From positions 304,814 through 368,813 of the forward strand of contig JAIXUD010000009.1 of assembly GCA_027483645.1 (NCBI GenBank): 64,000 nt of DNA, read 5' to 3'. The notes under the pieces are model-generated. The model saw nothing but the letters and a program-made list of their open reading frames with translations. It was not told the DNA's origin and did no database searches. The stretch's first letter is position 1, and each line of letters begins with the position of its first letter. Below, piece by piece: positions 2,733 to 37,668 of this stretch. Source of the stretch: Sphingobacteriales bacterium. Lineage in GTDB: Bacteria; Bacteroidota; Bacteroidia; Chitinophagales; CAIOSU01. The translations under genes and the position numbers were made by a program.

Positions 2733-3818
2733 ATGTCCACCAAGTTCGCCAAGAAAGTAGTCATCAAAGTAGGCTCTAACGTCATTACCCGTGCCGATGG
2801 GTTGCCGGATGAGGAGCGCATGGAGCACTTGGTAGAGCAGATAACGGTGCTGGCGAAGCAGCATATTGGGGTAGTGCTAGTATCATCGGGTGCGGTGGCT
2901 TCTGGTCGAAGCATTATTACCATAAAAGACAAAACCGACCCCGTTGCCGCCCGCCAGCAATTGGCAGCTGTAGGACAAATCAAGCTAGTAAATACATATG
3001 CACAACTTTTCGGTAAGCAGGGAATTGTGTGCGCGCAAGTGTTGGTTACCAAAGGCGATTTTAGGGACCGCAGGCACTACCTGAACATGAAGAGCTGCGT
3101 AAACAAACTGATGGAAAGCCACATTGTGCCTGTAGTAAACGAGAACGATGTAATTGCGGTAACGGAGCTGATGTTTACCGACAACGACGAGCTGAGCGCC
3201 TTGATAGCTTCCATGATAGGGGCCGATGCCTTAATATTGCTCACCAGTGTGGATGGGCTATACACAGGCAACCCAAGCGACCCAGCATCTCAATTGATAC
3301 CACTAATCGATAAGGCCAAAATGGACTTCTCCTTTATCGGTACCGAGCGCTCCAACTTCGGGAGGGGCGGTATGGTTACCAAGGCACGTATGGCTCACAA
3401 CCTAGCTAAAGTAGGTATAACGGTATACATAGCTAATGGCAAGAAAGACAACATATTATTGGATATACTGGGCGGTAAAGAACATGGTACTCGGTTTGCC
3501 CCGCATAAGTCTGCATCCAACCTAAAGCGCTGGGTAGCCAATGCTGATGGATTGGCGAGGAGCAAGGTGTTTATCAACCAAGGCGCAATAGATGCTTTGC
3601 TGAATACGGGCAAAGCCATTAGCTTGTTGCCAGTGGGTATCATCAAAATTGAAGGGGCTTTTGAGAAGGGCGATGTGGTGCGTATAGTAACCGAAAAGGG
3701 CCAATCGATTGGGATGGGTATAGTGAAGTATGGCTCCGACAAGGCATTGGAGCGCTTAGGGCAGAAAAGCCAACCTGCACTGGTACACTATGATTATCTT
3801 TATTTAAATGCAGAGTAA
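2733..3818 (+). CDS. proB: Glutamate 5-kinase
   Basis: Catalyses ATP-dependent phosphorylation of glutamate to gamma-glutamyl phosphate, the first step of proline synthesis, in the cytoplasm. The start is taken at ATG 2733, where the protein begins [17 protein letters not shown]; the frame is open further up to a TTG at 2706, but the promoter box lies in that extension. Family marks are the N-terminal KVGSNV phosphate loop, [12 protein letters not shown] near 50, the VVNENDVI segment near 137, TNDELSA-like [12 protein letters not shown] near 152 and [13 protein letters not shown] near 211. The last 90 or so residues match a PUA domain, giving the 361-residue two-domain form. It is followed directly by proA. 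Confidence 0.95.
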
Positions 3819-33443: not shown

Positions 33444-35105
33444 ATGACCACTACCTCCCGCACGCTCAAAGCCCCAACCGGCAACCAACTTACCTGCAAA
33501 GGCTGGGTGCAAGAGGCGGCCCTGCGCATGTTGCTTAACAACCTTGACCCCGAGGTGGCCGAGCGCCCCGAAGACCTGATAGTATATGGCGGCACCGGCA
33601 AAGCAGCCCGCAACTGGGAGGCCTTTGAGCTGATAGTAAAGGCCCTGAAAGACCTTAACGACGACGAGACACTGCTGGTACAATCGGGCAAGCCGGTGGG
33701 TATATTGCCTACCCATAAAGATGCCCCGCGGGTACTGATAGCCAACAGCAACCTGGTAGGCCACTGGGCCAACTGGGAGCACTTCCGTGAGCTGGAGGCC
33801 AAGGGCTTGATGATGTATGGCCAAATGACCGCCGGTAGTTGGATATACATCGGCTCGCAAGGCATTGTGCAGGGTACTTACGAAACCTACCTATCATTGG
33901 CTACCAAGCATTTTAACGGCAGCTTAAAAGGTACCCTGAACGTAACTGCTGGCCTAGGCGGCATGGGCGGTGCACAGCCGCTCTCCATCACCATGAACGA
34001 GGGCGTATGCCTAGCTGCTGAAATTGAGGAATGGCGAGTGCTGAAACGCATTGAGACCCGCTATTTAGACGAAATGACCCACAACATTGATGAGGCTATT
34101 GACCGCGCGCTAGAAGCGAAAGCCAACGGCGAGGCTGTTTCCATTGGTGTGGTATGCAATGCCGTTGACCTGCTGCAACGCCTGCTGGATCGCAACATTA
34201 CCCCCGATACCCTAACTGACCAAACCAGTGCGCACGATGAACTGGTGGGCTACTTTCCCGAATCACTAAGCGTAGCCGAAGCCAATAGCCTTCGCGAGCG
34301 TAGCCCCGATACTTACCGTACCCGCTCGCTGGATACCATGGTAACCCACGTGGGCCTGATGCTGGAGCTACAAAGCCGCGGTGCCATTACCTTCGACTAT
34401 GGGAACAACCTGCGTGGGCAAGCATTTGCCCGTGGATTGAAAGGCGCCTTCGGTTTCCCAGGGTTTGTGCCTGCATATATAAGGCCACTTTTCTGTGAGG
34501 GCAAAGGGCCGTTCAGGTTTGTGGCTTTAAGTGGCGACCCTGAAGATATTTACACCTGCGACGAGGAACTGAAACGCCTCTTCCCTACCGATACGGGGCT
34601 GCTGCGCTGGCTGGCCATGGCCAAAGAGCGCATTGCCTTTCAAGGACTGCCTGCCCGCATTTGCTGGCTGGGTATGGGCGATAGGGAAAAGGCTGGCCTT
34701 GCCATCAATAAGCTAGTAGCCGATGGCAAAGTAAAAGCTCCAATTGTAATCGGGCGCGACCATTTGGATACCGGCTCGGTAGCATCGCCTAACCGCGAAA
34801 CGGAGGCTATGCTTGACGGCAGTGATGCGGTGGCCGACTGGCCAATACTGAACGCCCTCATCAACACCGCTGGTGGTGCCAGTTGGGTAAGCTACCACCA
34901 TGGCGGCGGGGTAGGTATTGGCTATTCATTACACGCAGGCATGGTAATAGTCGCCGACGGAACACCCGATGCCGAACGACGCTTGAAACGGGTACTACAC
35001 AACGACCCCGCCATGGGCGTTATCCGCCATGCCGATGCAGGATATGACATCGCCAAAGACACCGCCCGCAAACATCGGTTGGATATTAAGGAGCGGTTGG
35101 GGTAA
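33444..35105 (+). CDS. hutU: Urocanate hydratase
   Basis: Converts urocanate to imidazolone propionate, step two of histidine degradation, using tightly bound NAD+. The 553-residue length is standard. Visible marks: [22 protein letters not shown] near 18, [15 protein letters not shown] near 48, the GMGGAQPLS Gly-rich segment near 172 and [13 protein letters not shown]-like near 318, with the catalytic Cys region around [19 protein letters not shown] near 350 and [18 protein letters not shown] near 485. No hutH, hutI or hutG is adjacent; ftcD at 12.8 kb carries out the downstream step. Monocistronic. Confidence 0.95.
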
Positions 35106-35129
35106 TTGTTTTAGCTGCCTCATGTTTGA

Positions 35130-35390
35130 TGCGGTCAGACGACTACCTTTGGGCGGGTATAAACTAGCTTGTGGCTGAACATTTTAATCGGAAAGGGCGT
35201 CCGACCGCTGCAGTTAGGGAGTCCAAGGTTATCGCAAAGGTGCTTACACATGTATTTATAATTACTTCATCATAGAAAGATAGACCTCTCGGTAAATAGC
35301 GGTCGGCCACGCCTGAAGCGTGGCCTCTGCGAATGAGAGCCTCTCGATTCCTCAACTTTCTACCCGTACAACCATAGTCGTCTGACCGCA
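35130..35390. mobile_element. 260-bp non-coding element with terminal and nested inverted repeats (MITE-like)
   Basis: TGCGGTCAGACGACTA (35130-35145) is perfectly inverted at 35375-35390, and the similarity extends inwards to about 34 bp at 28 of 34 positions (GGGT-A-AAA shared). Inside, CCGACCGCT (35200-35208) pairs with AGCGGTCGG (about 35301-35309), and next to it GGCCACGC-CTGAA-GCGTGGCC forms a perfect hairpin (about 35308-35328). No ORF is supported. The layout fits either a small non-autonomous transposable element or a structured RNA gene. It occupies most of the 382 bases between hutU and the antiporter; the remaining 97 bases hold the antiporter promoter region. Confidence 0.7.
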
Positions 35391-35487: not shown

Positions 35488-37668
35488 ATGAAGAAGACCG
35501 GATGGTTCTATACCATAATGGTAGGCGTAACAGGCCTGCTTATTTGGCTATTGCTTACCAACGGTCCTGATGCCGCCTCCCCCTTACCCGAAGTCGGAAC
35601 CGAAATAACCAATACTAGCACCACTGTCTGGAATAGTTTCGTTACGCAATTGCACCACCCGCTGGCGATACTGTTGCTACAAATCATTACCATTATCTTG
35701 GCAGCGCGTATAATTGGCACCCTGTTCCATAAAATTGGCCAGCCAACAGTAATCGGCGAGATTGTAGCAGGTATTGCTCTAGGTCCATCATTACTAGGCT
35801 GGCTTTGGCCCGAAGCTACCCTGTTCCTTTTCCCCGCCAACTCGTTGGGCAACTTACAGTTCCTCAGCCAAATAGGCTTGTTGCTATTTATGTTCGTTAT
35901 CGGTATGGAGTTGGATATCCGCTCCATCCGCAAAAAGGCGCACGAAGCGGTAGTTATTAGCCATGCCAGTATCATCATCCCATTTGCATTGGGGGTTGGC
36001 GTTTCCTACTTTTTGTTCGAGAACTTTGCCATGCCCGGCATATCGTTCACGGCATTTGCTTTGTTTATGGGCATCAGCATGAGCATTACCGCATTTCCGG
36101 TACTGGCTCGTATTGTGCAAGAGCGGGGCCTAAGCCGCACACCGCTCGGGAACTTGGTGCTCACTTGCGCCGCAGCCGATGATGTAACCGCTTGGTGCTT
36201 GTTGGCAGGGGTAATAGCAATGGTAAACGCAGGTGGCATTGGCCCAGCATTCGCCACTATTGCGCTTTCGGTGGCCTTTGTGCTCTTTATGTTTTGGGTA
36301 GTTAAGCCCTTTTTAGCCCGCATAGCCAGTGGCCGGGTTAATAAAGAAACGGTGAACCGACCAGTAGTAGGCATCATGTTCCTTACGCTATTGGTATCTG
36401 CGTATACCTGCGAAATCATTGGCATCCATGCGTTGTTTGGGGCATTTTTGGCAGGGGTTATTATGCCCGATAGCTTCAGCTTTAAAAAAGTAATTACCGA
36501 AAAGATAGAAGACGTGGCGCTGGTATTGCTACTGCCGTTGTTCTTTGTATTTACCGGCTTACGAACCGAAATTGGCGTACTCAACACACCAGGATTGTGG
36601 CTCACCTGTTTTGGCGTAACCGCTGTGGCAGTAGCTGGTAAGTTTGGCGGCAGCACCATAGCAGCAAGGGTGCTCGGCCAAAACTGGCGCGATTCCTTGA
36701 GCATAGGAGCGCTAATGAACACCCGAGGCTTGATGGAACTAGTGGTACTCAACATTGGATACGACCTTGGTATCCTTGGGCCACAGATATTCACCATGAT
36801 GGTGTTTATGGCACTTATTACCACTTTTATGACCGGCCCAGCCCTTAGCTTGATTGGGCGCATCTGGCCTGAGAAAATTTCTGCAGCGCAATTGGCCAGC
36901 GGGCAAAGCTTAATGATATCATTCGGAAAGGCCAATATGGGGGCTAAGCTTTTGCGCTTGGTACATGCTTTTGGTGGTAATACGGGTACCAAGGTTTCGG
37001 CATTACACGTATCGCCCATTACCGATATCTCTCCCGCCGACGCTACCCTTTTTGAGGCAGATAGCTTTGCGCCCCTCCAAGAAGAATCGAAACGCTTGCA
37101 GTTGCCGGTAGAAGCCATTTACCGCGCCAATGAAGACATTGATCAAGAAATAATGGACGTTCACGACACCCTACAACCTGAGCTCCTACTAATGGGCGGT
37201 GCCGAAACCATGTTTAGGGAGCAGCCCATGGGGCTTAAGATAAGGAAGGTACTGGCGCAAGTGGAGTGTGACGTATTACTCTTTACCGATCATAGCTTTA
37301 TAGCTCCAAACCGCATTGTGGTTGCCTACTATGATGAAAACGACCTGCCCCTGCTGAAGTATGCCAATATCCTATCGCAATCGGCAGGTAGTGTGGTGAC
37401 GGTGCTGTTGCTCACCGAGAACCGGCAGGTATACGAAACGGAAATGGCTCGATGCAGCTATAGCTTTGCCACCATCGTTAAGCAAGATTTCGACCATAAA
37501 TTCCTTAGCCATTTCGACCTGTTGCTGCTTACCTCGGCTAGGTGGGAGCACATCTTTAAAGATGAAGGCCTGCATATAGATTATCTGCCTTCGGTACTGG
37601 TGCTGCAAAAAGGCAAAAAGGAGTTCCACTCGCTCAACTTACTCAATGCCCCTAGCCAAGTGGCATAA
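35488..37668 (+). CDS. Cation:proton antiporter (CPA2/KefB-like) with C-terminal USP-like domain
   Basis: A 726-residue inner-membrane protein. After one N-terminal helix and a short loop, about 12 helices (50-440) form a Na+/H+ exchanger (CPA2) domain with PTVIGEIVAGIALGPSLLG near 90, ILVIGMELD-like MFVIGMELDIRSI near 133, FPVLARIVQERGL near 195, CAAADDVTAWCLLA (the conserved Asp pair) near 230, FLAGVIMPDS near 325 and LMNTRGLMELVVLNIGYDLG near 413. The soluble C-terminus (about 475-726) resembles paired universal-stress-protein folds that bind nucleotides. It moves K+ or Na+ against protons; ion and regulator unproven. Monocistronic. Confidence 0.9.
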   Translation: MKKTGWFYTIMVGVTGLLIWLLLTNGPDAASPLPEVGTEITNTSTTVWNSFVTQLHHPLAILLLQIITIILAARIIGTLFHKIGQPTVIGEIVAGIALGPSLLGWLWPEATLFLFPANSLGNLQFLSQIGLLLFMFVIGMELDIRSIRKKAHEAVVISHASIIIPFALGVGVSYFLFENFAMPGISFTAFALFMGISMSITAFPVLARIVQERGLSRTPLGNLVLTCAAADDVTAWCLLAGVIAMVNAGGIGPAFATIALSVAFVLFMFWVVKPFLARIASGRVNKETVNRPVVGIMFLTLLVSAYTCEIIGIHALFGAFLAGVIMPDSFSFKKVITEKIEDVALVLLLPLFFVFTGLRTEIGVLNTPGLWLTCFGVTAVAVAGKFGGSTIAARVLGQNWRDSLSIGALMNTRGLMELVVLNIGYDLGILGPQIFTMMVFMALITTFMTGPALSLIGRIWPEKISAAQLASGQSLMISFGKANMGAKLLRLVHAFGGNTGTKVSALHVSPITDISPADATLFEADSFAPLQEESKRLQLPVEAIYRANEDIDQEIMDVHDTLQPELLLMGGAETMFREQPMGLKIRKVLAQVECDVLLFTDHSFIAPNRIVVAYYDENDLPLLKYANILSQSAGSVVTVLLLTENRQVYETEMARCSYSFATIVKQDFDHKFLSHFDLLLLTSARWEHIFKDEGLHIDYLPSVLVLQKGKKEFHSLNLLNAPSQVA

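Follow-up and report, generated by a model that had tools for sequence, protein, structure and literature searches.

A dispersed REPIN-like element with two inverted long-loop hairpins, probably mobilised by a RAYT transposase, in a Sphingobacteriales genome

What kind of element lies between the genes named urocanate hydratase (hutU) and cation/proton antiporter by the initial annotation, and does it move? We analysed a window of 64 kb (the whole 64,000-nucleotide stretch) that contains this locus. The initial annotation, made from the letters alone, had described 34-bp terminal repeats enclosing two further nested stems. The 34-bp imperfect terminal inverted repeat proved to be real (35130-35163 and 35357-35390, 82% complementary, 193 nt between the arms), and the exact 16-mer TGCGGTCAGACGACTA occurred in the 64-kb window only at the two ends of the element; with up to 3 mismatches allowed, 0.19 chance matches are expected in 64 kb and none of 100 shuffles reached 2. 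In addition, the element folded far better than its shuffles on both strands (z = -4.95 and -5.92, one per strand). The inner pair CCGACCGCT / AGCGGTCGG was also present as described and is conserved in nearly all members of the family; its two parts are the inner arms of the two half-units listed in Table 1. The element starts 24 nt after the end of hutU and ends 97 nt before the antiporter gene. An Rfam search of the 64-kb window returned two tRNAs only and no match in the element.

Table 1. Features of the putative REPIN-like element and its surroundings (window positions)
Feature	Position	Strand	Basis
Upstream neighbour, urocanate hydratase (hutU; name from the initial annotation)	33444..35105	+	ORF
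Left flank ATGTTTGAT, fits WTGTTKGAW	35122..35130	+	flank information content
Family-A REPIN-like element, complete copy	35130..35390	+	inverted repeat and 13 full-length genomic copies
Element layout: two inverted long-loop hairpins and spacer	35130..35390	+	pattern scan, alignment
Left half-unit (78-nt hairpin with GCGGTCAGACG as outer and CGTCCGACCGC as inner arm)	35131..35208	+	pattern scan and covariance model
Inter-half spacer, poorly conserved	35209..35298	.	multiple alignment of copies
Right half-unit, inverted, 91 nt	35299..35389	-	pattern scan and covariance model
Nested small palindrome GGCCACGCCTGAAGCGTGGCC	35305..35325	.	present in the right half of the window copy
Downstream neighbour, cation/proton antiporter (name from the initial annotation)	35488..37668	+	ORF

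The element is not a single-copy feature of this place. Searched by blastn in its own genome, the element gave 55 matches (E ≤ 10), in many of which one end matched the other; when these matches were read together with their flanks, 13 dispersed full-length copies of ~240-260 bp were recognised (family A), with solo half-units in addition. The copies were 66-79% identical to the window copy by blastn, a divergence of ~21-34%, so the family is old, and its transposition is probably rare or over. All 13 copies were intergenic, in tandem, convergent and divergent gene gaps; three overlapped short ORFs only, which are probably spurious. The absence of an obvious target duplication, remarked on for the window copy, was found in all 13: the longest string shared by the two flanks averaged 3.0 nt, compared with 2.94 nt for mismatched flanks. 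The information content of the flanks showed the motif WTGTTKGAW 5′ of the left end in most copies. The 5′ flanks of the hairpins were TGA/GAW-like and a GT[AG]G foot was not present. Judged from these flanks, WTGTTKGAW may be a target motif or a foot sequence, the latter because similar TGA/GAW bases precede the hairpins of other families.

The relatives that could be checked carry the two neighbouring genes and lack the element between them. The hutU orthologues in same-genus genomes were 90-91% identical, antiporter orthologues adjoined hutU in three of these genomes (G001, G002 and G003), and none of the three had a copy at the syntenic place, the gap in G003 being short and free of the element. 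Furthermore, the half-unit covariance model found no match at hutU in G001-G004. For another copy (L036), the orthologous gap in G001, G002 and G003 was shorter by more than the length of the element. The orthologous intergenic regions were too diverged for a base-precise empty site to be aligned. The element is probably mobile, and the result that would have refuted the initial annotation, a single copy kept in place in all relatives, was not obtained. When 100 relatives were searched by blastn, the element matched in its own genome only; detection of the diverged relatives required the half-unit covariance model.

Each copy consists of two inverted half-units, which measure 76-83 nt (mostly 78-80) when nested palindromes are excluded. 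The half-unit stem has 13 positions (GCGGTC-A-GACGNC / GNCGTC-C-GACCGC) and keeps one central mismatch; in family A, the outer arm GCGGTCAGACG pairs with the inner arm CGTCCGACCGC across a loop of ~52-55 nt, and the left half-unit of the window copy has a loop of ~52-56 nt and the central A.C mismatch. An A stood opposite a C at the centre of each of the 28 distinct halves of family A, and across families the central position was unpaired in 78 of 79 halves and a standard pair in one. At position 12 of family A, the left halves mostly have A facing G and the right halves G-C. The 79 halves, with 33 distinct stems, were taken from five genomes, the own one and four others of the same genus; across them, position 2 was T-A or C-G and position 12 was G-C or A-T, in near-equal numbers. 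Compensatory cells with changes on both sides numbered 33, compared with 12.4 on average (sd 4.8) in a shuffle that ignores kinship, and none of 1000 shuffles reached this value. RNAalifold on the full element favoured one long cruciform, with few both-side changes; because such changes are few, family A alone leaves one cruciform and two hairpins undecided. It is the sequence covariation between families that supports half-unit hairpins over a long cruciform.

The perfect GGCCACGC hairpin, which had been counted among the nested stems, is present in the window copy (Table 1) and is a copy-specific extra found in 2 of 13 copies. It stands in place of four bases, at equivalent inner positions, in the right half of the window copy and in the left half of copy c43, and it is absent from the other eleven full-length copies. 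Since only these two copies have one, it lies outside the basic unit; the right half-unit of the window copy reaches 91 nt because this palindrome is nested inside it. The pattern CCACGC(4-6)GCGTGG occurred 14 times in the genome, compared with 0 for the reversed control pattern, which marks GGCCACGC as a separate small palindrome. The 14 sites include window positions 35307-35323, C10:412959, C1:301921 and C2:37347, and three of them lie in or beside REPIN-like hairpins.

The initial annotation had suggested looking for a transposase with these ends. Such a gene was found on contig C21, where family-A arms (L039:2807-2885 and 3654-3732) flank an intact 203-aa ORF of the RAYT type. The two flanking halves are both of the left type, in inverted orientation; in the dispersed copies, one half is of the left type and the other of the right type. 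The ORF matched Pfam Y1_Tnp (PF01797) above the cut-off. Its genome encodes two paralogues, on C1 (64% identity) and C22 (60%); the C22 protein was also above the PF01797 cut-off and the C1 protein just below it (22.1 of 23 bits). The NCBIfam model NF047646 (REP_Tyr_transpos) gave 48.5-61.5 bits for the RAYTs here (53 for C21), below its cut-off of 80. A RAYT profile searched against PDB had TnpA_REP 4er8 as its sole match, a weak one (E 0.0043); a PDB search with the single C21 protein, a plasmid megablast with the RAYT unit and a pattern scan of viral contigs gave no match. PNH[YF]H and YIHQN were invariant in the RAYT alignment, each of its nine proteins having NHYH or NHFH, and the HuH-to-Y spacing was ~81 residues (H54 to Y135). 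The G002 and G005 homologues and the paralogues on C1 and C22 have YIH[QN]NP; C21 reads YIHQNI for YIHQNP, and, given this substitution, the family-A RAYT may be impaired.

Both paralogues have hairpins of their own. The C22 gene is followed, at a distance of a few nt, by a long-loop hairpin pair with the stem GTGGTCTGACGGC / GCCGTCCGAACAC, and about a dozen dispersed pairs with this stem (family B; long-loop halves of 76-83 nt, ~30 nt between halves) were found. Compact 31-nt hairpins, GTGTTCGGACGGCTCGCAGCCGTCTGACCAC, stand on either side of the C1 gene, and family C consists of dispersed compact pairs of 31-nt hairpins whose covarying stem is GCGGTCAGACGGC / GCCGTCCGAACGC. With C21 beside family A, C22 beside B and C1 beside C, each of the three RAYT paralogues thus has a hairpin family at its side in the same genome.

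The association extends beyond this genome. Among genomes of the same genus and family with RAYTs of the same clade, the half-unit model matched 72 times in the own genome (3 RAYTs), a count inflated because the model was built from own-genome sequences, 10 times in a genome with 2 RAYTs and 28 times in G005, which has several RAYT matches; four relatives without RAYTs had 0-4 matches. Among the 74 RAYT homologues with enough flank, nearly all from Bacteroidota, at least 28 had matching-arm hairpins on both sides under a strict criterion, compared with 0-3 (about 1) in controls that paired the flanks of different RAYT genes. The loops of these flanking hairpins were ~3 nt (2-4 nt) or ~15-70 nt long, and nearly identical arms enclose 3 nt at locus L194 and 56 nt at locus L175. 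At locus L089 (G002:C10), the RAYT gene is flanked on either side by a complete four-arm element of ~217 bp, whose hairpins have a relative order opposite to that of the window family.

The reading that we favour, with a probability of roughly 0.85, is that the element is a non-autonomous REPIN-like unit of two inverted hairpins mobilised in trans by a RAYT; as part of this reading, each half-unit would be a REP with its loop expanded to ~55 nt, the halves standing ~90 nt apart in the window copy. RAYTs, HUH nucleases acting on single-stranded DNA, bind REP hairpins in a strand-specific way and cleave next to them, and E. coli REPs need a stem bulge for cleavage (PMC8266576). On sequence and known RAYT activity, the C21 RAYT most likely moves the element as a single-stranded hairpin pair, and such mobilisation fits the absent target duplications and the asymmetric left-flank motif. 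The RAYT would bind the hairpin while the DNA is single-stranded, probably in the template of the lagging strand at replication, and would tell the strands apart by the mismatch and the flanking bases. Its active-site tyrosine would then cut at the foot of the hairpin, and the excised or copied hairpin pair would be joined elsewhere without target duplication.

Other explanations were weighed against this one. The terminal inverted repeats, the size of ~250 bp and the dispersed intergenic copies are also what a classical MITE offers, that is, a deletion derivative of an insertion sequence with a DDE transposase that moves by double-strand cut-and-paste with target duplication. Such an origin is highly improbable: 13 copies lack a target duplication, the only gene found bearing family-A ends is a Y1/HUH transposase, and conservation goes beyond the termini to the internal hairpin arms and the fixed half length. 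Even less credence goes to a structured RNA that folds after transcription, as a 3′ UTR element, attenuator or terminator. A DNA hairpin explains the compensatory stem changes equally well, and the strong predicted fold, which appears on both strands, meets with no Rfam match; moreover, copies are not conserved at orthologous places and occur in gene gaps of all three kinds, divergent, tandem and convergent, so the folded-RNA role proposed in the initial annotation was not supported. Individual copies may still act at the RNA level. A further possibility is that another enzyme moves the hairpin family and that the RAYT gene landed in one copy by chance, for which the two left-type arms of the RAYT-bearing copy would speak, the dispersed copies having left and right arms. 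We consider this very unlikely, because two own-genome paralogues are flanked by, or lie next to, their own matching hairpins, as do 28 of 74 homologues across the phylum.

IS200/IS605 insertion sequences use Y1/HUH chemistry, carry subterminal hairpins and make no target duplication (see also PMC6006769). The family described here shares the Y1/HUH enzyme, the hairpins and the absent target duplication with them, but it ends in inverted copies of one hairpin, and its transposase is of RAYT type, encoded by a gene of low copy number. In TIRYT/TIRtrons (PMC3733652), as here, a RAYT-like gene lies between long inverted repeats, and these repeats also make up dimer families of moderate abundance; however, their TIRs are mostly unrelated to REPs, whereas the terminal repeats here are REP-type hairpins. 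The element also resembles REPIN/BIME elements with their RAYT (TnpA_REP; Pseudomonas fluorescens, E. coli), which likewise consist of two inverted REP hairpins dispersed between genes and have these hairpins on the two sides of a Y1/HUH transposase gene. Both keep an irregularity in the stem, a bulge in E. coli REPs (PMC8266576) and a mismatch here. The REPs given in PMC8266576 and in the main text of PMC6006769 measure ~20-65 nt, a range that includes the 31-nt family-C hairpin, whereas the halves of families A and B measure 76-83 nt, with a loop of ~55 nt; canonical REPs have a GTAG foot and hundreds of copies, compared with no such foot and tens of copies here. The element thus cannot be called undescribed without qualification: it is dispersed, probably mobile and has conserved nested pairing, but RAYT-associated inverted hairpin pairs (REPINs/BIMEs) are known.

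Within the RAYTs, TnpA_Y1 subclass 2.6 (Bertels group 5) provides the best comparison. According to the main text of PMC6006769, this subclass belongs to Bacteroidetes, lacks a GT[AG]G foot and has 'atypical secondary structures' beside the gene that are copied elsewhere in the genome, all as here. The same text gives a Y motif YIH[QN]NP, shared by the C1 and C22 paralogues, a median HuH-to-Y distance of 82 residues (~81 here) and a HuH motif NH[LIV]H, which differs from the NHYH/NHFH found here. The element probably works like a REPIN and its RAYT probably belongs to the subclass 2.6 branch; since the Y motif and spacing given there fit and the HuH motif differs, we do not call it a canonical REP. 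A long fixed-length loop, an invariant mismatch and a pattern of one RAYT with one family are not described in the main text of PMC6006769, although long loops may already be recorded in its supplementary structure tables.

A bolder proposal is that these elements form a distinct Bacteroidota class of RAYT elements, in which the near-fixed loop (~52-55 nt in the genus, up to ~73 nt elsewhere) would itself be recognised or cut, switching between short and long loops would have occurred repeatedly with the arms kept, and enzymes and hairpins would have co-diversified as private pairs. We regard this as rather doubtful. The RAYT/REPIN pairs treated in the papers cited here are mostly proteobacterial, with small GTAG hairpins. 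Here, one Bacteroidota genome holds three RAYT-hairpin pairs, two with long and one with short loops, and having them side by side allows a test of which part of the hairpin is read by the enzyme, why the mismatch is kept and how enzyme and target diverge together. Palindrome scans limited to short loops would miss such long-loop elements.

Several minor observations were made at and around these loci. On the 3′ side of hutU in G001 (L105 632-1541) and G002 (L102 632-1541), a ParD/ParE toxin-antitoxin module precedes the antiporter gene and lies between direct repeats of the hutU 3′ end (exact over 22-25 bp, imperfect over a longer stretch). G004 has an antitoxin-like remnant directly behind hutU, where G001 and G002 have the ParD/ParE module; the 3′ end of hutU appears to be a site of insertion. 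Four same-genus genomes have a solo half-unit hairpin upstream of apparently the same gene (G000:C19:6764-6844, L151 in G001, L155 in G002 and L149 in G003), so at least one copy seems to be vertically inherited. Upstream of a gene at L041 (3245-3291), a TGTCTAA/CTTGTGTC-rich stretch has ~23 matches in four same-genus genomes at 81-95% identity and is possibly, judging by these matches, another short dispersed repeat. Finally, at ~2600-2760 of L047 (G000:C19), several CCCACGGTTTCAACCGTGGG / AACCGTTTTAACGGTT hairpins, another class of palindrome, follow a solo half-unit.
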